A DNA stretch of 64,000 bases, taken from the NCBI RefSeq assembly GCF_000243235.1, contig NZ_JH594605.1:252660-316659 (forward strand), read 5' to 3'. The position numbers and the translations under genes are program-made. Of the stretch, positions 33,030 through 46,804 are shown piece by piece; the first letter of the stretch is position 1; each line of letters starts with the position of its first letter. Source of the DNA: Gillisia limnaea DSM 15749 (lineage in GTDB: Bacteria; Bacteroidota; Bacteroidia; Flavobacteriales; Flavobacteriaceae). The notes under the pieces are model-generated. The model did no database searches, was not told the origin of the DNA, and was given only the letters and a program-made list of their open reading frames with translations.

Positions 33030-33496
33030 AATAATTTTAGGGAAGATTTTTTCAATTTCACACAATGAAATGTACGCTTTGTAAAGGTAAGGCTACGGAA
33101 TTTTTAAGATAATACATTAGAAATATATCCGTTGCCAAAACTGCAAAGCTGTACTCCTTCATCCCAGCGATTATATCACTGCCGACTCTGAAAAAGAGCG
33201 ATATCTGGAACATAATAATGACGTTAGCGACCACCGCTATCAAAATTTTGTAAGTCAGTCCAATCACTTCCCGGGTAGTTCAAGATTTTTCTATCACATC
33301 CCGTGGATTGGATTATGGATGTGGGACAGGACCCGTTGCAACCGCTGAGTTGGTAAAACATTCTTATAAAGTCAATTTGTATGATCCGTATTTTGAGAAT
33401 CATCCTGAAGTTTTTGAAGAAACCTATGATTTTATAATTTGTTGTGAAGTCATGGAACATTTCCACAATCCTTTCGAAGAATTTAATCGACTCTTT

Positions 33497-33506
33497 AAAC
33501 TTTTAA
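33497..33506 (+). repeat. Left copy of 10-bp flanking direct repeat (probable target-site duplication)
   Basis: AAACTTTTAA at 33497-33506 is repeated exactly at 34182-34191. Joining the flanks with one copy recreates an unbroken methyltransferase frame (FKLLNPGG). Confidence 0.7.
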
Positions 33507-33543
33507 TGCTTATCCGTTTAGAAACCTAAAACAGTTTTTGTCC

Positions 33544-33590
33544 CCCTGAGACCCGTGATAAAAAAATTACCTAGCGTAGGTTTTTGACGT
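33544..33590 (+). repeat. Diverged direct repeat inside the element (copy 1)
   Basis: This stretch resembles 33964-34011 in the same orientation: shared blocks include GAGACC, AAAAATTACCTA and GACGT with scattered changes. The copies lie 420 bases apart on either side of the GIY-YIG relic. Confidence 0.55.
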
Positions 33591-33777
33591 AAATTTACTG
33601 GTAAGTATAACAAACCACGGGTTAACCGATATAAGTATAGTGTTCTCATACCTGCTCCTGAGTATGGTTTTGGAAAATATTGTTAGCGATGCTGGTGCTC
33701 AATTTAATTGATGCCGAATGGTAGTCTGTTGAAGTGCACTTATCGATTTACGCCTGTCACACTGGGCCTGTCGAAGT

Positions 33778-33903
33778 GCTTATACCTATAAAAGGGGACC
33801 AGTTGTTATAAAATTGTTTGAATATTTCATAGATGCTTCTCAGGCAATCAAGTTTGAAAAAAAATTGAAAGGATGGAACAGAAGAAAAAAAATAGCCTTT
33901 TAA
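33778..33903 (+). pseudogene. C-terminal relic of a GIY-YIG nuclease gene
   Basis: Forty-one codons before a TAA read as the typical C-terminal end of the small GIY-YIG (UPF0213-like) proteins: AYTYKRGPVVIKLFEYF, then ASQAIKFEKKLKGWNRRKK. A one-base frame change at about 33900 continues in LIEENLEYSKVFDRLRLT, an ending often seen where such genes run into GACAGGCTCAG repeats. The catalytic GIY and YIG motifs are absent, so the fragment cannot be active. It lies wholly inside the mobile element. Confidence 0.65.
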
Positions 33904-33963
33904 TTGAAGAAAATTTAGAGTACTCAAAAGTCTTCGACAGGCTCAGACTGACTTGCGTTGGCA

Positions 33964-34011
33964 TCCCGAGACCAGAGATAATAAAAATTACCTAACGAAG
34001 GAAAACGACGT
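33964..34011 (+). repeat. Diverged direct repeat inside the element (copy 2)
   Basis: Partner of 33544-33590 in the same orientation; the shared blocks are GAGACC, AAAAATTACCTA and GACGT. Confidence 0.55.
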
Positions 34012-34181
34012 TTTAAGTCTGATAAATTAAATTTTAATTCATCTTAATTTACTAAATAACAGTTTGTTGCAAAACACGTCAATGGTAGCGCAGTCGAAGG
34101 GTCAAACAAAACGTCTCGACTGCACTCGACGTGACACTTTTAGTTCAATTTTGTCTTTTGGGTCTCTTAACGGATATACAA

Positions 34182-34191
34182 AAACTTTTAA
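34182..34191 (+). repeat. Right copy of 10-bp flanking direct repeat
   Basis: AAACTTTTAA, identical to 33497-33506, directly after the right inverted terminal repeat and tail. Confidence 0.7.
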
Positions 34192-34409
34192 ATCCTGGCG
34201 GAACACTTTACTGCAAAACCTTGATTTTTAATGAATCTTTAGATTTTGACAGGTGGTATTACAAGAACGATCCCACGCGTGTGTTTTTTTATTCGGAAGA
34301 AAGTTTAGAATAGATTAGGGGAAATTTTGGATTTGAAAAATTAGAGATTGCTCCGAAGCTTATCGTTTTTGAAAAATAGTATTTTTCGGGCTTCAACCTG
34401 ATTTTTGAA

Positions 34410-35776: not shown

Positions 35777-36367
35777 TCAACGTCCTTTTTTCATCAACGG
35801 AAATTTCATTTTATAATCGCCTTGTATTTTTCCTTTTGAAATGTTAGCTAACTTTCCTTTAATTAAACGCTTTTTAAGACTAGAAAGTTTATCGGTAAAT
35901 AAAATTCCTTCTATATGATCATATTCATGTTGGATAACCCTTGCGGCTAGGCCTTCATAAACCTCACTAAAAGAATTAAAGTTTTCGTCCTGATATTCTA
36001 TGGTAATTTGTTGTTTTCTAAAGACATCTTCCCTTACCTCCGGAATGCTTAAGCATCCCTCATTAAAGGCCCATTCCTCTCCCTCTTCGGCTACGATTTT
36101 AGGATTTATAAAAACCTTTCTAAGATTTTTTAATTGTTCTTGTTCTGCAATTTCCAATTCCTCATCTTCTCCAAAAGCACTTGGATCTATAATAAATAAA
36201 CGTATTGGGAGTCCAATTTGTTGAGCTGCAAGTCCCACCCCGTATGCTTCATACATGGTATCCCACATATTTTCAATGAGTTCATCCAGCTTTGGATACT
36301 CTTTAGTGATCTCCTTTCCTTCCTTTCTTAAAACCGGATCTCCGTATGCAATAATTGGTAATATCAT
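35777..36367 (-). CDS. def: Peptide deformylase
   Basis: A 196-residue metal-dependent enzyme that removes the formyl group from nascent N-terminal methionine. All three signature motifs are visible: GVGLAAQQIG (motif 1), EGCLSIPE (motif 2 with the metal-ligand Cys) and QHEYDHIEG (motif 3, HExxH with two His ligands and catalytic Glu). The C-terminal basic extension (KGKIQGDYKMKFPLMKKGR) is common in Bacteroidota. It is followed after 58 bases by the DUF5606 gene. Ribosome-associated, cytosolic. Confidence 0.96.
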   Translation of the reverse strand: MILPIIAYGDPVLRKEGKEITKEYPKLDELIENMWDTMYEAYGVGLAAQQIGLPIRLFIIDPSAFGEDEELEIAEQEQLKNLRKVFINPKIVAEEGEEWAFNEGCLSIPEVREDVFRKQQITIEYQDENFNSFSEVYEGLAARVIQHEYDHIEGILFTDKLSSLKKRLIKGKLANISKGKIQGDYKMKFPLMKKGR

Positions 36368-36564
36368 TTAGTATGGTATAATTAGTATTGAATAATGTAT
36401 TATTATAAAAAATCAACTATTCCTATCTTTTATAGCTGTAAAATTTAATATAGGCTTGTGTGATTTTTACTGATGGGTTTTAAATAGTTATTTCAGTAAC
36501 ATAGCTTTTTATTTCCAGCAGATCCCCTCAGAAAAAATCTTCACTTTTTTTTAACCCTATCTAC

Positions 36565-36640
36565 TCAAAAAAGTCTCTTTTCTATTCTCTATATTCTACA
36601 TTCTATTTTCTCTCCACTTTCTACTTTCAACTTTCAACTT
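36565..36640. repeat. Polypyrimidine tract with degenerate short tandem motifs
   Basis: Nearly all C and T on the plus strand, with loosely repeated units such as TTCTAT, TCTACTTTC and CAACTTTC. It lies between ruvX and def. I see no hairpin; it may be a simple-sequence expansion. The rest of the 276-base gap shows nothing else I can interpret. Confidence 0.5.
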
Positions 36641-36643
36641 TTT

Positions 36644-37048
36644 TTAATAAAGATATGATTGCAAAATTATGGTCGCACTTATCTCATCCAATAGAGCCTT
36701 ATTCTGACGTTTTTTCTTTTTTAATCCGCTATCGATCATCGTCCTAACCGCCATCTTCGATGTAAACCGTTCATCTACCCGTTTCATTTCCATAGTTGGA
36801 AATTTTTCCTGAAATTTCTTCAAAAACTCCTGAATTGGGACTTCATTATTGGAAGCCGTATTATCCATTTGTTTTGGTTCCCCAACAAGGACAAGCTCCA
36901 CATTTTCGATCTTAAAATAGTTCTCGAGATAAGGGATCAATTCTTTGGTAGGAATAGTCGCGAGCCCGGACGCAATGATCTGAAGATCATCGGTTACTGC
37001 AATTCCGGTGCGTTTGACACCATAATCTAAAGCTAAAATCCGTGCCAT
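36644..37048 (-). CDS. ruvX: RuvX/YqgF Holliday-junction resolvase-like protein
   Basis: A 134-residue RNase-H-fold protein. LALDYGVKRTGIAVTD carries the first catalytic Asp, VELVLVGEPK the central strand, VDERFTSKMA the Glu, and LLDEISATIILQSYL the last acidic residue and helix. Relatives process the 5' end of pre-16S rRNA and were first noticed as predicted junction resolvases; the rRNA role is better supported in E. coli (yqgF). It starts at ATG 37048 with a good promoter upstream. It is divergent from dapD. Confidence 0.92.
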   Translation of the reverse strand: MARILALDYGVKRTGIAVTDDLQIIASGLATIPTKELIPYLENYFKIENVELVLVGEPKQMDNTASNNEVPIQEFLKKFQEKFPTMEMKRVDERFTSKMAVRTMIDSGLKKKKRQNKALLDEISATIILQSYLY

Positions 37049-37061
37049 TGCAAATTTTACG

Positions 37062-37095
37062 CAAAGGTAAGGTTTATCTTCCTATACTCCCAAAA
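37062..37095 (-). promoter_or_regulatory. Predicted ruvX promoter
   Basis: The minus strand reads TTTTG (complement of 37091-37095), a spacer of about 21 bases and TACCTTTG (complement of 37062-37069), a perfect -7 match, 13 bases before the ruvX ATG. Confidence 0.6.
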
Positions 37096-37111
37096 ATTGG
37101 ACATAAGCTGT

Positions 37112-37119
37112 TATATTTG
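37112..37119 (+). promoter_or_regulatory. Possible -7 element for dapD
   Basis: TATATTTG matches TAnnTTTG perfectly and lies 16 bases before ATG 37136. The upstream TTG at 37097 is closer than usual (12 bases), so the -33 box is uncertain. The region is shared with the ruvX promoter. Confidence 0.4.
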
Positions 37120-37135
37120 CTAAAAACAAATTAAA

Positions 37136-37951
37136 ATGAAATTACTGGAAGATATTATTACCAAGGCCTGGGAAGACAGAAGTTTACTGGGCGATTCTAT
37201 AACTATCGATGCTATTCGACAAGTAATTTTGCATCTGGATGAAGGAAAACTACGGGTTGCCGAACCAACAAGTGATGGCTGGAAGGTGAATGAATGGGTG
37301 AAAAAGGCGGTTGTGCTCTATTTCCCTATCCAAAAGATGAAAACCCTTGAAGCCGGAATTTTTGAATACCACGATAAAATTCCCTTAAAAACAGGATTTG
37401 CAGACAAAGGGATTCGGGTGGTTCCAAATGCCGTTGCGCGCTACGGAGCATATATCTCTGCCGGAGTGATTTTAATGCCGAGCTATGTAAATATTGGCGC
37501 TTTTGTAGATGAGGGAACTATGGTAGATACCTGGGCCACCGTGGGAAGCTGTGCCCAAATAGGCAAAAATGTTCACTTAAGTGGCGGTGTTGGAATTGGT
37601 GGAGTTTTGGAACCTTTACAGGCTGCACCGGTAATTATTGAAGACAATGCCTTTATAGGTTCCAGATGCATCGTTGTTGAAGGGATTAGAGTTGAAAAGG
37701 AAGCCGTTTTGGGCGCCAATGTTGTGCTTACCGGCTCAACAAAAATCATTGATGTTACCGGAACAGAACCCAAAGAAATAAAAGGACACATCCCTTCACG
37801 ATCTGTGGTAATCCCTGGAAGTTACACCAAAAAATTCCCCGCAGGAGAATTTCAGGTGCCTTGTGCATTGATTATAGGAAAAAGAAAAGAAAGCACCAAC
37901 AAGAAAACCTCTTTAAATGATGCTTTAAGGGAATATAATGTGGCGGTGTAA
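37136..37951 (+). CDS. dapD: 2,3,4,5-tetrahydropyridine-2,6-dicarboxylate N-succinyltransferase
   Basis: A 271-residue left-handed beta-helix acyltransferase of the succinylase branch of lysine and diaminopimelate synthesis. The N-terminal helical domain has AWEDRSLLGDS and DEGKLRVAEP; the hexapeptide-repeat region includes GAYISAGVILMPSYVNIGAFVDEGTMVDTWATVGSCAQIGKNVHLSGGVGIGGVLEP with the substrate residues Asp and Glu; SVVIPGSYTKKFPAGEF marks the end. It supplies meso-DAP for peptidoglycan. The intact C-terminus is duplicated as a broken fragment at 40299-40455. A palindromic repeat block follows immediately after the stop. Confidence 0.96.
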   Translation: MKLLEDIITKAWEDRSLLGDSITIDAIRQVILHLDEGKLRVAEPTSDGWKVNEWVKKAVVLYFPIQKMKTLEAGIFEYHDKIPLKTGFADKGIRVVPNAVARYGAYISAGVILMPSYVNIGAFVDEGTMVDTWATVGSCAQIGKNVHLSGGVGIGGVLEPLQAAPVIIEDNAFIGSRCIVVEGIRVEKEAVLGANVVLTGSTKIIDVTGTEPKEIKGHIPSRSVVIPGSYTKKFPAGEFQVPCALIIGKRKESTNKKTSLNDALREYNVAV

Positions 37952-38060
37952 GCCCCCTAACCCCCGAAGGGGGAGCTAATAAACAGGGATGAATAGATCG
38001 ATAAAACGTTAAACCATTTAGAATAACTCCTCCCCTTTGGGGAGGCCGGGAGGGGCTTTT
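37951..38060 (+). repeat. Palindromic intergenic repeat after dapD
   Basis: Two strong hairpins, CCCCC-GAA-GGGGG at 37961-37973 and CCTCCCC-TTT-GGGGAGG at 38029-38045, sit between complementary outer arms AGCCCC near 37951 and GGGGCTTTT at 38052-38060. This design is a familiar Flavobacteriaceae intergenic repeat and may also stop transcription from dapD just before the glycosyltransferase gene at 38062. Confidence 0.7.
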
Positions 38061-38061
38061 T

Positions 38062-39126
38062 ATGAAAATACTCATTATTCAACAAAAAATGATTGGAGAC
38101 GTTTTGACGTCCTCAATCCTTTTTGAAGCCTTACGAAAGGAATTTCCTAAAGCTGAATTACATTATTTAATTTATCCGCATACCAAGCCTGTAGTAGAAA
38201 ATAATCCGTTTATAGATAAGCTTATTGAATACGATCCAGGAATTGGAAAAGACCCCATAAGATTCCTGAAGTTTTTAAATTTTATTCGCAAGGAATCTTA
38301 TACTGTGGTAATTGATATTTATTCAAAAATAAGTTCGGGAATAATTGCAAAATACTCTGGTGCATCAATCAGATTGGGGTTTCAGAAAAATTATACCCAC
38401 GCATTTTACACCCAAACTTTTAACTATAAAGAGAAACCTGAAACACAGGCAGGGCTGGCCATAGAAAACCGAACGCAGGTTTTAGAGGCATTTCACAAAA
38501 ATTTCCCCAGGGATTTAAAACCTAAAATTCACATATCTTCGGAAGAAAAAGAAAACTTCAGAAAAAAACTTGAAAAACAAGGTGTAAACTTAGAACATCC
38601 ACTAATTATGTGTGGCATATTAGGCAGTTCTGCAATGAAAACTTATCCAGGAAATTATATGGCTTTCCTTCTGGATGAAGTGATAAAACAGGCCCCAAAG
38701 GCTCAAATACTCTTTAATTATTTACCCTGGCAAAAAACTGAGGCGAAGAATATTTATAACCAATGTAAGACTAAAACCCAGTCTCAAATTTTCTTTAATA
38801 TTTATGAAAGTTCCCTAAATGGTTTTATGCTGAATTGCGCTAATTGCGACCTCTATTTTGGCAACGAAGGTGGAGCAGCAAATATTATGAAAGCATTGGA
38901 TAAACCCACTTTTTCTATACATTCTCCCATAATAAAAAAGAATTATTGGGCTATTTATGAAGATGGCGAAAAGCATGTTTCAGTGCACCTGGAAGATTTT
39001 CAACCTCAGCTTTTCAAAACTTGTCCACGCAGATATAACAAAAAACTGAATACGACTTTATATCAAAAACTAAAACCTGAATTGCTCAGCTTAAAATTAA
39101 GTAACTTCCTGAAAAACTTCAAATAA
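38062..39126 (+). CDS. Glycosyltransferase family 9 (heptosyltransferase-like)
   Basis: A 354-residue GT-B fold enzyme like LPS heptosyltransferases. Landmarks: MKILIIQQKMIGDVLTSSILFEALRKEFPKAELHYL (N-terminal Rossmann entry with the typical IGDVL), YTVVIDIYSKISSGIIAKYSGA, CGILGSSAMKTYP (donor side) and CDLYFGNEGGAANIMKALDKPTFSIHSP (equivalent of the usual NDSGxMHxAxA). ADP-heptose or a related nucleotide sugar is the family donor; the acceptor is unknown. The stop overlaps the next start by one base (TAATG). Lies in the AT-rich glycan block bracketed by dapD and its tail copy. Confidence 0.87.
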   Translation: MKILIIQQKMIGDVLTSSILFEALRKEFPKAELHYLIYPHTKPVVENNPFIDKLIEYDPGIGKDPIRFLKFLNFIRKESYTVVIDIYSKISSGIIAKYSGASIRLGFQKNYTHAFYTQTFNYKEKPETQAGLAIENRTQVLEAFHKNFPRDLKPKIHISSEEKENFRKKLEKQGVNLEHPLIMCGILGSSAMKTYPGNYMAFLLDEVIKQAPKAQILFNYLPWQKTEAKNIYNQCKTKTQSQIFFNIYESSLNGFMLNCANCDLYFGNEGGAANIMKALDKPTFSIHSPIIKKNYWAIYEDGEKHVSVHLEDFQPQLFKTCPRRYNKKLNTTLYQKLKPELLSLKLSNFLKNFK

Positions 39127-40190
39127 TGAACTACCGGTTTCTAATTTACATCAGCTACACCTACGCTTTTCCTATTGGCGAACCTTTGGAAAAAGAAATC
39201 CAAAAGCGTGGTTACGAGGTGAAATGGTTTGCAGATGTAGAGGAAACCAAAAAAAAAATTAGCAAGGATAAGACTGTTTTAGAAGATATTCAATCAGTTA
39301 TGGCTTATCAACCACATGTTATTTTAAGTATCACAGACAGCATTGCTGATTTTATTCCTGGAATTAAAGTCCAGGTTTTTCATGGGTTTCTGGCAAATAA
39401 ACATAGTTTCAAAAAAGGTCATTTCAGAATTAGAGGATTATTCGACTTGTACTGCACTCAAGGACCTTCTACCACAGGACCTTTTAAAGAATTACAGAAA
39501 CAACACAAACATTTTGAGGTAATAGAAACAGGTTGGTCTAAGGTAGATTCTTTGTTCCCTATAGAGAAAAATTCTACCGAAAAACCTGTAATATTGATCT
39601 CTTCGACCTTCTCCCCCAAATATAGCCTGACCTATGTGGAAGAGGTAATAAATGAAATAAAACGATTATCTAAAACAGGGAAGTGGGAATTCAAAATCGT
39701 TTTACATCCAAAATTGGCTAAAGATAAGATCGAAATTTTCAAGGCTATGCAGAATGAAAACCTTACTTATTATGATACCACAGATATAATACCGCTCTTC
39801 AAACAGGCAGATATTATGTTTTCTGATACAACTTCTGCAATCACTGAGTTTATACTTCAAAAGAAACCTGTAGTAACTTTTAAAAACAATAAGCCAGGAG
39901 AACATTTTATTAATATTACTGAAGTTTCTGAAATTGAATATGCCCTTTCCAAAGCTTTAACAAGACCGCAACCTATTATGGAAGCAATTCAGAATTATAT
40001 TGATGTTACTCACCCTTATTCCGATGGTAATTCAAGCCAACGTGTAATTAATAGTTGTATCGAGTTTTTAAATAGCGATAGATCCCATCTGAAAAAGAAA
40101 CCTCTTAATTTAATTAGGAAATTCAAGGTGAGAAAAAAACTTGGTTTTTATCCGCTCAAAACATATCGGCGACCTCCTACTATTAAATAG
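39126..40190 (+). CDS. CDP-glycerol glycerophosphotransferase-like protein
   Basis: A 354-residue protein related to the glycerophosphotransferase (teichoic-acid TagB/TagF) family. The conserved QVFHGFLANKHSFKKG carries the catalytic-type His near residue 88. KPVILISSTFSPKYSL, WEFKIVLHPKLAKD (donor-binding HP) and ADIMFSDTTSAITEFILQKKPVVTF (the SDTSS-type phosphate loop) are in place. Gram-negative homologues add phosphoglycerol-like units to surface glycans; the donor is inferred. Directly coupled to the upstream GT9 gene. A likely decayed dapD tail begins about 110 bases after the stop. Confidence 0.82.
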   Translation: MNYRFLIYISYTYAFPIGEPLEKEIQKRGYEVKWFADVEETKKKISKDKTVLEDIQSVMAYQPHVILSITDSIADFIPGIKVQVFHGFLANKHSFKKGHFRIRGLFDLYCTQGPSTTGPFKELQKQHKHFEVIETGWSKVDSLFPIEKNSTEKPVILISSTFSPKYSLTYVEEVINEIKRLSKTGKWEFKIVLHPKLAKDKIEIFKAMQNENLTYYDTTDIIPLFKQADIMFSDTTSAITEFILQKKPVVTFKNNKPGEHFINITEVSEIEYALSKALTRPQPIMEAIQNYIDVTHPYSDGNSSQRVINSCIEFLNSDRSHLKKKPLNLIRKFKVRKKLGFYPLKTYRRPPTIK

Positions 40191-40298
40191 TGAAAACTAA
40201 TTTTGTAATTTTCACTATTTGAATGTAGAAATGATTTTAACCTATTGAATTTGTGCAGACTTTTTGTGTTATTTAATTTCTCGAAAATTTAACTTAGT

Positions 40299-40453
40299 AT
40301 GGAAAAAAAATTGATTCTTATTCCAGGAAGCTATGCCAAAGAGTTTCCTGCAGGAACTTTTAACGTGCCTTGATCATTGAGAAACGTAAAGAAAGCACGA
40401 ATAATAAAACGTCTTTAAATGATGCTTTGCGGGAGTATAATGTGGTGGTTTAG
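40299..40453 (+). pseudogene. Broken copy of the dapD 3' end
   Basis: This stretch matches the last ~46 codons of dapD. A short frame starting ATG 40299 reads LIPGSYAKEFPAGTFNVP then hits TGA; with a several-base deletion near 40371 corrected it continues LIIEKRKESTNNKTSLNDALREYNVVV and a TAG at 40451-40453. The intact dapD end (37805-37951) reads VIPGSYTKKFPAGEFQVPCALIIGKRKESTNKK and so on. The copies are clearly homologous but diverged (several silent and missense changes), so this is not a recent duplication. The 347-base gap between 40190 and 40538 holds nothing else recognisable. Confidence 0.85.
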
Positions 40454-40537
40454 ATGAAAACCTAAGAATATTTCTTATTTTTACATAAATAAATAATCCG
40501 AATTATAACCTGAATTCTTGGGTTAAACTCATATCGA

Positions 40538-41527
40538 ATGACAGAACCTTTTGAAAACATTCAAGTTGATGCCGTTATAACTTGGGTGAATGGAAACGAT
40601 AAAATTTGGCAGGGAAAAATAAATGCTTATTCTGAATCTAAAATAAATTTCTCTTCTAAAAATCATCTTAAGCGATACAATTCGATTGGAGAAATTGATA
40701 TGGCCATTAAATCTATAATTAAGTTTGCGCCTTTTATTAAGAATATTTTTTTAGTAACCGATAATCAATCGCCTCAATCCTTTGATTCCTTAAAAGCATT
40801 AGCAAAAAACAAAGGTGTAAACTTAGAACTGGTTGATCATAAGATTATTTTCAGGGGGTTTGAAGAATATCTACCCACCTTCAACTCGTGCTCTATTATA
40901 TCTATGTTATTTAGAATTCCCTACTTATCTGAGCACTTTATAATTTTTAATGATGATACTCTATTAATGAGAGAGGTATTAGTAGATGATTTCTTTATTA
41001 ATGGTGAACCAATTATAAGAGGTAAATGGCAACAGTTTAATGAAAACAAATCTTTAAGAAAATCTTATAATGAAATTTTGACTTTTTTAGATATTCCGAT
41101 AAAAAAAAGTGAAATTAGTTTCAAGAAATTACAACAGAATAGTGCCAAATTGGCTCAAATGGATAAGTATGTCAGACGTTTTCATACGCCAGTTTGTGTA
41201 AGAAAGTCCACCCTAACTAACTTCTTTAAGGAAGATACATTGCTTAGAAAGAACATACAACATAGGTTTAGAAGTGAAAATCAATTTCTTATATCTTCCT
41301 TATCTGAGCACTTAGAAATTAAAAATAATACTTATCATTACCGGAATAATTCCCAATTGACATACTTCCGATCTTATAAAAAATTATGGTTGACTAGATT
41401 AAAGTTAAAGTGGTTTAAAAATAATCCGAATAAACTCTTCATCACATTTCAAAGCTTGGACATGGCAAATGATGAAATTTTAGAATATATATTGTATTGG
41501 ATAAAGAAACGATTGAGTAAGAACTAA
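40538..41527 (+). CDS. Stealth-family sugar-1-phosphate transferase
   Basis: A 329-residue member of the Stealth family (capsule/exopolysaccharide hexose-1-phosphate transferases, related to human GNPTAB). Conserved region 1 is near the N-terminus (IQVDAVITWVNGNDKIWQGK), region 2 follows (FLVTDNQSPQSF and FIIFNDDTLLMREV, with the acidic FNDDT metal/nucleotide site). Later parts include RFHTPVCVRKS. These enzymes form phosphodiester-linked glycans, giving the neighbourhood a capsule-like role. The gene is conspicuously AT-rich: one 60-base line I counted by hand (40681-40740) has 17 G/C against about 30 in a purA line. Confidence 0.88.
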   Translation: MTEPFENIQVDAVITWVNGNDKIWQGKINAYSESKINFSSKNHLKRYNSIGEIDMAIKSIIKFAPFIKNIFLVTDNQSPQSFDSLKALAKNKGVNLELVDHKIIFRGFEEYLPTFNSCSIISMLFRIPYLSEHFIIFNDDTLLMREVLVDDFFINGEPIIRGKWQQFNENKSLRKSYNEILTFLDIPIKKSEISFKKLQQNSAKLAQMDKYVRRFHTPVCVRKSTLTNFFKEDTLLRKNIQHRFRSENQFLISSLSEHLEIKNNTYHYRNNSQLTYFRSYKKLWLTRLKLKWFKNNPNKLFITFQSLDMANDEILEYILYWIKKRLSKN

Positions 41528-41613
41528 GATGTTTCTGATTATAAAGTAGAAAAGTCAAGTATTATTTTGCGTTCTTCCCCGAAGCGAACAAAAATTTTAA
41601 ATTCATATCTAAT

Positions 41614-42381
41614 TTATTTAATTCCCAAAAGATTTTTGAATTTCTGTTTCACTTTTCTGTTCTTACCACGGTTAACGAAAAAGGAATTCGCAAAAAACCA
41701 CATCTTCTTAAAAACATCGTTTTCCGGTTTTCCAAGAAGATCTGCGTATTCTTCAGCCATAATTTTCACCAGTTCTTTATTGGAAGTCAGCCTCTCAAAG
41801 TTCTTCATCCTTTCAGTAAAATTAAGCGACTTGAAAATCATTCGGTTTAAATCTACCAAATAGAATTGGAAATTTCCATTATTTAAATGAATCAACGTAT
41901 TTCCGGGACTATGATCTAAAAATTCAACCTTTTTCTCATGTAAATTATAGGTAAACTTTGTAAAGGCGCGTAAAATATCTTCGTGTCCAGGCTTAGCCAA
42001 ATCTAAATCCCTAAACGTAAGGTTATACTCCAAATGTTCACTGATATAATAACTCTTGGTTAGCGCACCTTTGCTTGTTTCTTCGGCAAAAGCAATGGGT
42101 TTTGGGGTCCCAATTCCTTTTGTCATCAATCTTTCAGCAAATTCAAAGGAACGTTCTGCTTTAGATTTTCTAAAATACACATAAACATACCTATTGATGT
42201 AATTTGGTTGTTTAAAAGATTTTATATTAAATTTTATCCCATCTATCTCAACCACTTTTATATGGTTTCTACGTCGCTTTTTACCGGTGAAAAACGATTG
42301 ACCAACAGCGTTGAAATTAAGCAAGATTTCTTCAACACCTTTTTCCGATAACTTATGATATTTTGATAAATATATCTTCAT
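41614..42381 (-). CDS. InaA-type lipopolysaccharide kinase family protein
   Basis: A 255-residue kinase-like protein of the InaA/WaaP (Kdo kinase) group. The N-lobe has the ATP-binding lysine region VEIDGIKFNIKSFK and the hinge YISEHLEYN. The catalytic loop EFLDHSPGNTLI (HxxPxN variant of HxD...N) and metal-binding VDLNRM (in place of DFG) are visible. A role in phosphorylating a lipid A/core or other glycan sugar fits the neighbourhood, but the substrate is inferred. It is the only minus-strand gene in the block, opposite to Stealth and GT4 genes. Confidence 0.83.
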   Translation of the reverse strand: MKIYLSKYHKLSEKGVEEILLNFNAVGQSFFTGKKRRRNHIKVVEIDGIKFNIKSFKQPNYINRYVYVYFRKSKAERSFEFAERLMTKGIGTPKPIAFAEETSKGALTKSYYISEHLEYNLTFRDLDLAKPGHEDILRAFTKFTYNLHEKKVEFLDHSPGNTLIHLNNGNFQFYLVDLNRMIFKSLNFTERMKNFERLTSNKELVKIMAEEYADLLGKPENDVFKKMWFFANSFFVNRGKNRKVKQKFKNLLGIK

Positions 42382-42466
42382 TAACCTATAATATTGAAAT
42401 TTTTACCAGAAAATTCAGGTAATATAAAAAGTATTTCATGATTTCTAAAAATCACGCGTAAATCAC

Positions 42467-42474
42467 TATTTTTG
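42467..42474 (+). promoter_or_regulatory. Possible -7 element for the GT4-tsaC-cca operon
   Basis: TATTTTTG matches TAnnTTTG about 90 bases before the GT4 ATG at 42565. No TTG at proper spacing is evident. Confidence 0.3.
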
Positions 42475-42564
42475 CGCCCATAGTCTGTTGTGCATTACCT
42501 AAAATCAGGTTTAGAATAATTAGCAAATATAGCCATATCAAAGGCGAAAAAAGAAAAACTTCTA

Positions 42565-43677
42565 ATGAAAATCCTTCATTTATCGGCAGTACATAGTTGG
42601 GGAGGCGGCGAAAAACAAATTGAATTGCTGTGCGAAGAATTTCAAACCGGTTTTCCAGAAGTAGAAAATATTATTCTTTGTGTTGAGGAAGGATTATTTC
42701 ATAGAAAATTGAAAAACACTAACATAAATTTCAAAACTGCCCCGCTAAAATTTAATTTAGATCTTCGGTATAGCTTGAGAATTATTAGTTTTTGTAAAAA
42801 AAAGCAAATAGATCTTATACATATTCATGATCCGAAAGCACTTTCCCTAGCGGTTATAGCGGATAAATTTTACAATTTACCCTTAATGGTATTTAGTAAA
42901 AAAACGACCTTTCCTATTAAAAACCGGAAACAAACACTTTTTAAATATAACTATCCAAAATTAAAACGCATTTTATGTGTCTCAAATAGGACCAAAGAGA
43001 TTACGGCAGAAACGCTAAAAAATTATGACCGGTTAAAAACAATTTATCACGGTATTAGTCTGATAAAGCAACAAAATATTACTACAAAAATCGATCTTCG
43101 AAAGAAACTTGGGCTTGGTAAAGATGTTATTCTAGTAGGAAATATTGGAAACCATATTCCCGCAAAAGATCTGACTACTTTTATCAAAACTGCTAAAAAA
43201 GTAATTCAGCAGCAAGAAAAGCTGAAATTTCATTTTGTTCAAATTGGCCAATTTACATCTGAGACCCCTAATTTACTTAAACAAGTAAACACTAATAATT
43301 TAGAAAAAGATATCAGCTTTTTAGGATTTATGGAAAATGCATCGGCCGTAATTCCGCAATTAGAAGTTTTACTCTTAACCTCAAATTCAGAAGGCGTACC
43401 AAACGTAATTTTCGAAGCATTCTATCATAAAACTCCAGTAATTACGACTAATGTGGGCGGAATTTCCGAAATTGTGACCCATATGGAAAATGGGCTTTTA
43501 ACTGAAGCTTTTGATGCTAAAAAATTAGCAGAACAAATCCTCTTTTTACAGAAAAATCAGGAACTAATACCTCGTTTTACAGAAAACGGTCATAAAAAAG
43601 TGGTAGAACATTTTACAACTAAACAGATGGCAACAAAAACATTACAAGAATATAAATTAGTTCTCAATGGAAAATAA
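42565..43677 (+). CDS. Glycosyltransferase family 4
   Basis: A 370-residue GT-B retaining glycosyltransferase. N-terminal domain: LHLSAVHSWGGGEKQIELL and IHIHDPKAL. The C-terminal domain has VGNIGNHIPAKDL, the donor-binding SNSEGVPNVIFEAFYHKTPVITTNVGG (E-x7-E motif) and ENGLL. The donor sugar is not predictable. Its last 11 bases overlap the tsaC start, tying it to a housekeeping operon although its function belongs to the glycan block. Confidence 0.9.
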   Translation: MKILHLSAVHSWGGGEKQIELLCEEFQTGFPEVENIILCVEEGLFHRKLKNTNINFKTAPLKFNLDLRYSLRIISFCKKKQIDLIHIHDPKALSLAVIADKFYNLPLMVFSKKTTFPIKNRKQTLFKYNYPKLKRILCVSNRTKEITAETLKNYDRLKTIYHGISLIKQQNITTKIDLRKKLGLGKDVILVGNIGNHIPAKDLTTFIKTAKKVIQQQEKLKFHFVQIGQFTSETPNLLKQVNTNNLEKDISFLGFMENASAVIPQLEVLLLTSNSEGVPNVIFEAFYHKTPVITTNVGGISEIVTHMENGLLTEAFDAKKLAEQILFLQKNQELIPRFTENGHKKVVEHFTTKQMATKTLQEYKLVLNGK

Positions 43678-44239
43678 TATAAAACAGGAAATAGAAAACA
43701 CCCTTGAAGTTTTAAAAAAAGGAGGGATCATTTTATATCCAACGGATACAGTTTGGGGAATTGGTTGCGATGCTACCAACCCACAAGCAGTGGAACGGAT
43801 ATATAAATTAAAAAAACGAGCCGATAGCAAAGCGATGATCTGTCTTGTGAACAGCGTAAAAATGCTGGAACAGTTTGTAGATAAGGTTCCGGATCCCGCA
43901 TATGATGTTATTGATCATTCCAATAAACCAACAACCATTATTTATGATAACCCAATTCGGGTGGCAAATAATCTGGTTGCTGAAGATGAAACTCTGGCTA
44001 TACGCGTGGTGAAGGAAAAGTTTTGTGAACAACTTATCTACAAATTAAGAAAACCCCTGGTTTCGACTTCTGCAAATATCAGTGGGGAACCTACCCCAAA
44101 ATCTTTTGCTCAAATAGCTCCGGAAATTTTAAAAGGTGTAGACTATATAGTAAATTTGTATCATTCAAAAATATCAGATAAACCTTCGTCCATAATTAAA
44201 ATTGGGAACGATAGAACTGTAAAAGTGATACGCAAATAA
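43667..44239 (+). CDS. tsaC: L-threonylcarbamoyladenylate synthase (TsaC/Sua5 family)
   Basis: A 190-residue YrdC-fold enzyme making threonylcarbamoyl-AMP from threonine, bicarbonate and ATP for tRNA t6A. Conserved blocks: ILYPTDTVWGIGCDA, KLKKRADSKAMICLV (Lys/Arg/Ser/Lys signature), TTIIYD and LVSTSANISGEPTPKSF. It has the YrdC domain only, so it is TsaC-like rather than Sua5-like. It starts inside the GT4 gene and is followed after 3 bases by the CCA-adding gene, so the tRNA-modification and tRNA-maturation genes are co-transcribed. Confidence 0.93.
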   Translation: MENNIKQEIENTLEVLKKGGIILYPTDTVWGIGCDATNPQAVERIYKLKKRADSKAMICLVNSVKMLEQFVDKVPDPAYDVIDHSNKPTTIIYDNPIRVANNLVAEDETLAIRVVKEKFCEQLIYKLRKPLVSTSANISGEPTPKSFAQIAPEILKGVDYIVNLYHSKISDKPSSIIKIGNDRTVKVIRK

Positions 44240-44242
44240 GAC

Positions 44243-45667
44243 ATGCCCAAAAACAAGAATTTCAGCAAAGCACTCAAACCTGAAATATTTAAAATTATAT
44301 CCTGCGCCACCGAAGAATTAGGCCTCGAGAGTTATGTGATAGGTGGGTTTGTAAGAGATCATATCTTACAGCGTGGAGATCCAAAAGACATCGATATTGT
44401 TGCTGTAGGAAGCGGAATTGTGCTGGCAAAAAAAGTTTCTGAATTACTGCCCCATCAACCAAAAGTTCAGATTTTCAAAAATTACGGAACCGCTATGTTG
44501 CGGGCTTTTGATATGGAGATCGAATTTGTGGGAGCCCGTACCGAAAGTTATAATGAAGATAGCCGAAATCCCATGGTGGAAAATGGTTCCCTGGAAGATG
44601 ATCAAAACCGTAGAGATTTCACTATTAATGCCCTTGCTTTAAGTTTAAATGAAAAAAATTTTGGAGAGCTTATAGATCCTTTTGACGGCCTGGGAGATCT
44701 TGAATCACAACTGATTAAAACCCCTCTGGATCCGGATATAACCTACTCTGATGATCCTTTGCGCATGCTTCGCGCTATAAGGTTTGCAACTCAATTGGGT
44801 TTTAAAATTGAAACTCAATCCATGGAAGCGATTTCCAGGAACAACGAGCGCATTAAAATAATTTCCGGAGAACGTATTGTAGATGAACTTCATAAAATAT
44901 TGCTTTCTAAGAAACCTTCAAAAGGGTTTAGCCTTTTGCATAAAACAGGCTTACTTCAGCTTATTTTACCTGAATTAACCGCCCTGGAAGGAATTGAAGA
45001 AATCGAAGGTCAGCGACATAAAGACAATTTTTGGCATACACTGGAAGTAGTGGATAACATTTCCAATAACACCGATGATCTCTGGTTACGCTGGGCGGCT
45101 CTTTTACACGATATTGGAAAGGCGCCTACCAAGAAATTCCATAAGAAAATAGGCTGGACCTTCCATGGACACGAATTTATAGGAGCTAAAATGGTTTTTA
45201 AACTTTTTAAACGCCTACGGATGCCATTGAATGAGAAGATGAAATACGTTCAAAAACTCGTATTGATGAGTTCCAGACCTATTGTGATAGCCGATGAAAA
45301 TGTTACAGATTCTGCTGTGCGTAGGTTGGTATTTGATGCGGGGGACGAGATTGAAGATCTAATGACACTTTGTGAAGCAGACATCACAACAAAAAATCCG
45401 AAAAAATTTAAAAAATACCATAATAACTTTCAGAAAGTAAGGGAGAAAATTAAAGAAGTTGAAGAACGGGATCATGTTCGAAATTTCCAGCCACCTGTTA
45501 CAGGGGAAGAAATAATGAAGACCTTCCACCTGAAACCATCCAGAGAAATAGGAATTATTAAAGATGCTATAAAAGAGGCTATTCTGGAAGGGGAAATTCC
45601 TAATGAATATGAAGCAGCCAGGAATTTCATGCTTAAAAAAGGCAAAGAAATAGGCTTAAAAACTTAA
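44243..45667 (+). CDS. CCA tRNA nucleotidyltransferase with HD domain
   Basis: A 474-residue class II polymerase-beta-type enzyme. Head domain: [15 protein letters not shown] with the GG...R motif and KDIDIVAVG with the DxD metal site. Next come [13 protein letters not shown], the nucleotide-selecting [13 protein letters not shown], and then helical neck and body. The C-terminal part carries an HD phosphohydrolase motif, [24 protein letters not shown]. It adds or repairs the 3' CCA of tRNA; since A-only and CC-only variants exist, the exact activity is inferred. Three bases after tsaC. Confidence 0.92.
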
Positions 45668-45769
45668 AATACATAGACCTGAATAAATAAAGATTGGATC
45701 AAAATGAAAATAGCTTTTAAACGTTTGTTAATCTTGATTTTTCCGGTAAGGTTTAGAAATTAGAAGGAC

Positions 45770-45777
45770 TAAATTTG
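45770..45777 (+). promoter_or_regulatory. Possible -7 element for ctaA
   Basis: TAAATTTG matches TAnnTTTG and ends 4 bases before ATG 45782. The nearest TTG (45734-45736) is too far away. Confidence 0.3.
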
Positions 45778-45781
45778 CGCT

Positions 45782-46804
45782 ATGAAAAGAGACCTAAAAC
45801 CTGTTGCAATCTGGCTTCTCACTGGATGTTTTCTTATTTTTATAATGGTGGTAGTGGGAGGGATAACCCGGCTCACAAATTCCGGACTTTCTATGACCGA
45901 TTGGCATCTGGTAACCGAAGTAATTCCACCAATTACGCACACGCAATGGGAAGCGGCTTTTGAAGAATATAAAAAATATCCGGAATATCAGAAGATCAAT
46001 ATTCATTTTGATTTCACACTTGAAGATTATCAGCAAATCTATTTCTGGGAATGGTTTCATCGATTACTTGGCAGACTGTTAGGGATTGTATTTATTGTTC
46101 CTTTCATTTATTTCCTGATAACGAAAAAGATTAGCGGAGAAGTCCTAAAAAAATGTATTGCTCTTTTATTCCTGGGAGGATTCCAAGGATTTTTGGGCTG
46201 GTATATGGTAAAAAGTGGCTTGATTGATCAACCGGATGTGAGTCATTACAGGCTCGCCATGCATCTTACCACCGCATTCATAACCTTTGCTTTTACCCTT
46301 TGGGTAGCATTGGATATTATGTATCCAGCTAAAAAAATCATAAAAACCGGTTTCCGAAATTTAATAAGGTTTACCCTGGTGATTTTGTTGATACAGATTG
46401 TTTGGGGAGCATTTGTGGCAGGTTTAAATGCAGGTTTAATACATAATACCTGGCCATTGATGAATGAAGGTAAACTCATACATGAAACGGTATACATAGA
46501 ACAATCGCCACTATGGAGGAATTTTGTAGAAGGAAAAAGTGGCGTACAGTTTGTGCATCGATACCTGGCTTACGTCGTGGTAGCGCTTATAGGTTTAATT
46601 TGGTTAAAAAGTTGGAAATTAGATCTTACCGGCCCGCAAACCACCGGAATTAGCGCACTGGTAATTTTAGTCGTTGTACAATTTGTTTTGGGAGTTTTTA
46701 CCCTTATTTTTGCCGTACCGCTTTGGTTGGGAATTTTGCACCAGGTAGGAGCATTTTTCCTTCTTGCCGCAATTACATTTACCCTGCATAGATTTAGCCG
46801 ATAA
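45782..46804 (+). CDS. ctaA: Heme A synthase (COX15/CtaA family)
   Basis: A 340-residue polytopic membrane enzyme that oxidises heme O to heme A for aa3-type cytochrome oxidase. Hydrophobic segments fall at about 10-30, 93-115, 128-145, 163-185, 200-220, 250-270, 282-305 and 312-335. Heme-ligand histidines are in EWFHRLLGR, HLTTAFITFAF, FVHRYLAYV and ILHQVGAFF. The NSGLSMTDWHLVTEVIPP loop is family-typical. It implies an aerobic respiratory chain. It follows the CCA gene by 114 bases and has its own promoter-like box. Confidence 0.93.
   Translation: MKRDLKPVAIWLLTGCFLIFIMVVVGGITRLTNSGLSMTDWHLVTEVIPPITHTQWEAAFEEYKKYPEYQKINIHFDFTLEDYQQIYFWEWFHRLLGRLLGIVFIVPFIYFLITKKISGEVLKKCIALLFLGGFQGFLGWYMVKSGLIDQPDVSHYRLAMHLTTAFITFAFTLWVALDIMYPAKKIIKTGFRNLIRFTLVILLIQIVWGAFVAGLNAGLIHNTWPLMNEGKLIHETVYIEQSPLWRNFVEGKSGVQFVHRYLAYVVVALIGLIWLKSWKLDLTGPQTTGISALVILVVVQFVLGVFTLIFAVPLWLGILHQVGAFFLLAAITFTLHRFSR

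Follow-up and report, generated by a model that had tools for sequence, protein, structure and literature searches.

A displaced dapD 3′ end in front of a Stealth gene in the variable dapD–sua5 glycan interval of Gillisia limnaea

Gene organization between ruvX and sua5

The DNA analysed here is a stretch of 64,000 nucleotides (the window) from Gillisia limnaea DSM 15749 (contig NZ_JH594605.1), in which the interval that separates the core genes dapD and sua5 is occupied by genes of surface-glycan type and, additionally, by a second, displaced copy of the dapD 3′ end. The region under study (36644-44239) begins with ruvX (36644-37048, minus strand; Pfam RuvX), the conserved left flank, and the intact dapD (37136-37951, plus strand like all further features unless noted; Pfam THDPS_N_2/hexapeptide). 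After a short stretch (37952-38061) come a heptosyltransferase-like gene of the GT9 type (38062-39126; Pfam PF01075) and a Glyphos_transf-like gene, here called Glyphos (39126-40190). A spacer (40191-40298), followed by what is probably left of another gene's first codons (40299-40317), leads to the displaced dapD end (40318-40453), which a second spacer (40454-40537) separates from a Stealth-family gene (40538-41527; Pfam Stealth_CR1/CR2). A Kdo/WaaP-family kinase gene (41614-42381, minus strand; Pfam PF06293), a GT4 glycosyltransferase gene (42565-43677) and sua5/yrdC (43667-44239) complete the region.

The displaced copy is real and beyond chance. It covers roughly the final 47 codons of dapD, and a repeat search pairs 37863-37950 with 40365-40452 at 82% identity over 88 nt. 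A profile built from 136 dapD tails scores 102.2 bits at 40318-40452. The homology is clear from 40318-40320 onwards and ends at the stop codon. A 7-nt deletion shifts the reading frame, and the first in-frame stop is the TGA at 40371-40373, so that the copy is a pseudogene. This agrees with an earlier note on this DNA, which had described a displaced dapD end with frameshift and stop that finishes at the same stop codon as the intact gene; of the extent given there (about 46 codons at 40299-40453) the end stands and the start has to be moved. The own and the displaced tail are identical at 106 of 136 positions (78%), a divergence much greater than an assembly error would give.

The tail profile found no second dapD tail in 117 further dapD loci, of which two pairs each share one genome; only three matches at E 4-5 appeared there. 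A search with the tail protein gave a match in 368 of 397 genomes of the family and more than one match in four, namely the own genome, G231, G233 and G315. Of the second matches in the latter three, one is a contig-edge piece, one a full-length frame from an assembly with 6% contamination, and one is weak and covers 28 residues. A wider family of such dapD fragments was thus sought in these 117 loci and 397 genomes and none was found.

Type of the displaced dapD tail

The displaced tail carries the motif YAKEFPAGTFNV, which occurs in one of 136 distinct dapD genes (four of the 136 being without a readable motif). The bearer, G028, belongs to another genus. The motif is absent from all 15 dapD genes of Gillisia, the window's own included, and from all nine of Salegentibacter. 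The four positions at which it departs from the own motif (T-A, K-E, E-T, Q-N) all correspond to the G028 type, and over the whole tail 113 of 136 positions agree with G028, compared with the 106 shared with the own dapD. Among the 397 genomes the best DNA matches are G028 and G431, members of one genus, the third member of which (G281) ranks lower. In a tree of 133 tails the displaced copy falls inside a set of ten rows (99/92, the latter starred) that contains neither Gillisia nor Salegentibacter sequences. Judged by its motif and best matches, the fragment is a foreign-type dapD end and no copy of the local gene, as the earlier note had supposed for one of the two ends; its proposed comparison with dapD tails of the family points the same way.

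Stealth behind dapD in other genomes

Stealth gave no match at E<=1e-20 in the 15 other Gillisia genomes, several of which are incomplete; at the same threshold 42 of 397 genomes of the family contain it. In eight of the nine genomes with the best Stealth matches, all eight outside Salegentibacter, the gene lies 15-443 bp behind dapD, and even the widest of these gaps (in G426) holds no same-strand frame of at least 60 amino acids. Five more distant relatives in the set of 117 dapD loci are located 1.0 to 2.9 kb behind dapD and speak against a universal arrangement; the adjacency is common, not universal. In G371 a single alignment at 64% identity runs through the intact dapD tail, the spacer and Stealth on one side and through the displaced tail, the spacer and Stealth of the window on the other. 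A dapD end together with Stealth is thus a normal unit in other genomes. Because the closest Stealth relatives outside Salegentibacter adjoin dapD, the displaced tail is best read as a donor dapD end that was brought along with Stealth. In this respect the earlier note, according to which a cassette of the two genes between the tails may have brought its own dapD end, needs correction, since the fragment belongs to the Stealth side and not to GT9 and Glyphos.

The block exchanged between dapD and sua5

Identities were compared over 14 loci of Gillisia and nine of Salegentibacter. Exclusion of high-scoring segment pairs covering under 60% of a gene left three of nine Salegentibacter loci for def, one of nine for DUF5606 and none in either genus for mazG. 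In the flanks the median identity (%) is mostly higher to Gillisia than to Salegentibacter (ruvX 81 vs 73, dapD 89 vs 84, sua5 82 vs 65). Within the interval the relation is reversed, with medians of 72 to Salegentibacter vs 48 to the own genus for GT9, 78 vs 54 for the kinase and 72 vs 50 for GT4. For Stealth the Salegentibacter median is 82 (3 loci), and the gene is absent from the own-genus loci.

The protein trees, quick reconstructions with SH-aLRT support only (those of dapD, ruvX, kinase and sua5 with the first 30 “other” rows), divide the genes in the same way; all supports given here are starred. The window's dapD, at the left edge of the block, groups with five Gillisia rows (97) and sua5, at the right edge, with twelve (99), and the nearest rows of ruvX are from the own genus with no starred set. 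GT9 groups with six of nine Salegentibacter rows (100), Stealth with three (100), the kinase with seven of nine (100), and GT4, the last gene of the block, with three (98) and eight (99); the long branches in the Stealth and GT4 trees advise caution.

The type switches between dapD and GT9 and between GT4 and sua5 are sharp. Best identities to the own genus and to Salegentibacter change from 88/83 in the last dapD window to 60/85 in the second GT9 window, and from 59/81 in the last GT4 window to 91/71 in the first sua5 window (120 nt). The exchanged block extends from GT9 to GT4 (38062-43677); its GT9, Stealth, kinase and GT4 genes group with Salegentibacter, with dapD and sua5 remaining of the own-genus type. 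This is at variance with the two-gene cassette bracketed by dapD ends in the earlier note but bears out its view of the dapD 3′ end as a boundary for the exchange of surface-glycan genes. For GT9, Stealth, kinase and GT4 the best third-position identity to Salegentibacter lies at 0.58-0.74, compared with 0.46-0.53 for def, ruvX, dapD, sua5 and pcnB. Most likely, therefore, the block was transferred after the two genera had separated. The guanine-cytosine (GC) content is about 29-35% in the block, 42% in dapD and 36-39% to the right of the block; base composition is weak evidence because the left flank has also 33-37%.

Glyphos is a mosaic. As a whole it groups with the own genus (97/98, starred), and the informative sites, counted as Salegentibacter to own genus, are 16:1 in 39126-39305, 4:58 in 39306-40115 and 5:2 in 40116-40260. 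These counts rest on four of eight Gillisia and four of five Salegentibacter rows, and windowed identity was computed as well. Evidently, to judge from this distribution, an own-genus allele was copied into the middle (about 39306-40115) of a gene with two Salegentibacter-like ends.

The stretch between dapD and GT9 (37952-38061), which sits at the left breakpoint, contains a paired palindromic interspersed repeat with the halves CCCCTAACCCCCGAAGGGGG and CTCCCCTTTGGGGAGGCCGGGAGGGGC. There are 23 further partial matches of this repeat across the own genome (E<=0.01), and similar sequence is found 3′ of dapD in some relatives, too. Possibly it is a further handle for recombination.

Salegentibacter haplotypes and the left junction

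The relative genus g51 was taken as Salegentibacter; the Glyphos rows of its G433 and of S. agarivorans NZ_FOOH01000001.1 are identical. Loci were examined in nine of 15 genomes, and the DNA of the displaced tail plus Stealth was searched in all 15. Three of them (G294, G436 and G438) show the order dapD-GT9-Glyphos-Stealth-one gene-kinase-GT4-sua5. The single gene between Stealth and kinase is a GT90 gene in G438 (L182 5436-6407) and an unrelated opposite-strand frame of 282 amino acids in G294 and G436 (L151 9371-10219, L185 7526-8374), and the window has only 86 bp and no gene at this place. Thus, the sequence 3′ of Stealth, which bears on the right junction, differs between carriers. In front of Stealth the three genomes have a spacer that is homologous to 40454-40537 and conserved with it, and in G436 the BLAST match covers 40436-41527, starting within the last 18 nt of the displaced tail. 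In a position-anchored shuffle test of the dapD part alone, 25 of 2000 shuffles reached the score of G438 and 5 of 2000 that of G436; unanchored tests for a dapD vestige in Salegentibacter gave no signal. The displaced tail is best preserved in the window genome and almost fully eroded in the three Salegentibacter carriers.

A haplotype near that of G438 is found in G439, where a group-1 glycosyltransferase and a polysaccharide pyruvyl transferase replace Stealth and are followed by the same GT90 gene (L184 4175-6454 for the two genes, L182 4295-5284 for Stealth, in both cases between Glyphos and GT90). At the Glyphos end the two haplotypes share 84 nt with 86% identity, and between the start of GT90 and the kinase they share 1751 nt with 90%. 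In G439 the gene following Glyphos has the Pfam domain Glycos_transf_1, and the spacer of the window (40191-40298) can be aligned with G439 all the way from Glyphos to the displaced tail, the start of this glycosyltransferase included (window 40193-40329; 0 of 1000 shuffles). Likewise none of 1000 shuffles reached the alignment score of 40192-40254 against G438, and both tests mark the spacer as a homologue of the one that follows Glyphos in Salegentibacter. Position 40299 is an in-frame ATG, from which the window reads MEKKLIL, compared with MAKNLILVTG at the start of the G439 glycosyltransferase. Probably, therefore, 40299-40317 represents the first codons of a G439-type glycosyltransferase gene and not dapD, the evidence from this colinear alignment being moderate.

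Since homology with the Stealth-less G439 haplotype runs up to the displaced tail, the junction is placed just 5′ of it, at about 40318, where only short similarity is seen. The simplest reading of these alignments is that the displaced tail would be the left end of an inserted piece that consisted of a dapD end and Stealth.

The dapD–sua5 interval in the family

Across Flavobacteriaceae the interval between dapD and sua5 is variable in its surface-glycan content and conserved in its flanks. In 75 of the 117 loci (two pairs among the 75 being from the same genome) the distance between both genes ranges from -11 to 8677 bp; the remaining 42 loci, without a same-strand sua5 detected downstream, were excluded. 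With this range and the differing genes the variable gene content suggested in the earlier note is confirmed. Own-genus loci and those of named relatives in other genera often contain relatives of GT9, Glyphos, Stealth, kinase or GT4, and in Maribacter the interval has two GT2-type genes and a third one just below the Pfam cut-off. GT9 is found downstream of dapD in all 14 Gillisia and all nine Salegentibacter loci, Stealth in none and three, respectively. The distance is essentially zero in four loci (L064, L072, L074 and L085), in which dapD directly adjoins sua5 and which represent the empty version of the glycan interval.

Proposed history and its alternatives

With a probability of about 0.7 we consider the displaced tail as a passenger, i.e. 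a donor dapD end carried along with Stealth in a glycan locus that was exchanged between genera. In the donor lineage Stealth would have stood directly behind dapD. A DNA piece with its left end inside this donor dapD would have entered a cell with the order dapD-GT9-Glyphos-other glycan genes-Kdo kinase-GT4-sua5 and would have been joined just behind Glyphos, probably among the first codons of the glycosyltransferase gene that came next. On this left side the joining may have been illegitimate or mediated by microhomology, and the truncated dapD end would have been left as dead sequence before Stealth. The resulting Stealth haplotype, now present in three of 15 Salegentibacter genomes and the window genome, would then have circulated; a homologous replacement bounded by dapD and sua5 as core genes would have brought it into the window lineage or from one of the two genera to the other. 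This last step we infer, because no crossover was seen inside dapD.

Several observations weigh against this history. A scan of 24 dapD genes by windowed identity, which left out two comparison genes with apparent indels, revealed neither a crossover nor a foreign stretch. The gene def reverses the pattern of the flanks (own genus 75, Salegentibacter 79, the latter from only three loci), pcnB is level between the genera (82 vs 82), and some Salegentibacter species carry other types of the block genes (GT9 33-78%, kinase 47-81%, GT4 55-80%). The gene behind Stealth varies between carriers, in G294 a dapD vestige is not significant, as 1103 of 2000 shuffles reach the score, and the tail profile detects none in G294, G436 and G438 (nothing at E<5). 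The gene-start remnant at 40299-40317 agrees in only 14 of 19 nt, and a search of 60 relatives, made without positive control, found the glycosyltransferase of G439 in none of them. G028, the best-matching tail, has GT9 rather than Stealth behind its dapD, and no genome examined combines dapD–Stealth adjacency with a close match to the displaced tail. Finally, the approximately unbiased (AU) test gives no significant rejection of a grouping of the displaced tail with own-genus tails (p 0.257; 141 columns), for which reason the tail tree alone is not decisive. The same result is what favours an old tandem duplication in which the end of the local dapD was copied and later decayed. We regard such a duplication as very improbable, since all four motif differences match the G028 type and the displaced tail is nearer to G028 than to the own dapD. 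A recent tandem duplication, which according to the earlier note would speak against a foreign origin, is rejected on the motif and the best matches; the AU test alone would still allow it.

The same final gene order would be obtained with the opposite polarity, if a dapD-GT9-Glyphos piece had been inserted in an old dapD–Stealth locus, with dapD rebuilt from the entering piece and the resident tail left before Stealth. That the Stealth relatives next closest after those of Salegentibacter adjoin dapD fits this course as well. Nevertheless it is rather unlikely, since GT9 and not Stealth is the rule behind dapD in both genera, the comparison of G438 with G439 presents Stealth as the exchanged module, and homology with the Stealth-less haplotype continues up to the displaced tail. 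Far less can be said for site-specific integration at the dapD 3′ end with the two tails as copies of an attachment site, as proposed in the earlier note. An intact gene, cargo genes and a broken tail, with homology that stops at the stop codon, is indeed the pattern such an event leaves. However, tails that are 78% identical and differ by a 7-nt deletion are not near-identical direct repeats, no integrase or recombinase is among the eight proteins from ruvX to sua5 (Pfam), the window has no tRNA, and no second tail was found in the 117 loci although their cargo varies. We therefore reject it as exceedingly improbable. There is also no Rfam match in 36000-46000. Homologous exchange between the flanking core genes explains the locus better. 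An extension of this view, namely a family-wide integrase-free glycan exchange locus in which carried donor dapD ends serve as secondary landing sites that promote swaps, appears quite unlikely.

Relation to known systems

The interval from dapD to sua5 marks a fixed address at which genera of Flavobacteriaceae exchange genes of surface-glycan type. The outer surface glycan is commonly recognised by phages, and an exchange at this place would presumably alter it. Apparently the cargo can take the end of a neighbouring housekeeping gene along and thereby reveal the gene order of the donor, so that exchange between genera could be followed from single genomes.

Hotspots without integrases whose content changes through recombination in the neighbouring core genes are known (PMC5635113). 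In the part of that report considered here they resemble the dapD–sua5 interval in their variable content between core genes, in the lack of a recognised mobile element and in block edges at core genes. The present case differs in that it extends across genera, with one genome per species and without population recombination rates, and it adds a fossil of the donor's flanking gene. Salmonella O-antigen clusters carry gene remnants and mosaic junctions (PMC3715488), and according to the sections of that paper used here modules are swapped by recombination and remnants mark the junctions, as in the window. Those remnants derive from cluster genes such as wzy or from H-repeat/IS elements, whereas here the remnant comes from the housekeeping gene at the flank and is of foreign type. 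Homology-facilitated illegitimate recombination, as outlined in the portion of PMC3240628 consulted, combines one homologous with one illegitimate end and would leave a truncated donor gene; in the window only a product that fits is seen. The locus is thus of a known kind and apparently undescribed here, as no description of a dapD–sua5 exchange locus was found among the matches listed in open-licence literature. In kind there is nothing unusual about the displaced tail itself; as a record it is exceptionally clear.

Independently of this locus, a methyltransferase-like gene at 33308-34313 is split in two Methyltransf_23 pieces (33308-33529 and 34131-34313). The approximately 600 bp between them contain an imperfect inverted repeat of 27 nt and an imperfect direct repeat of 19 nt.

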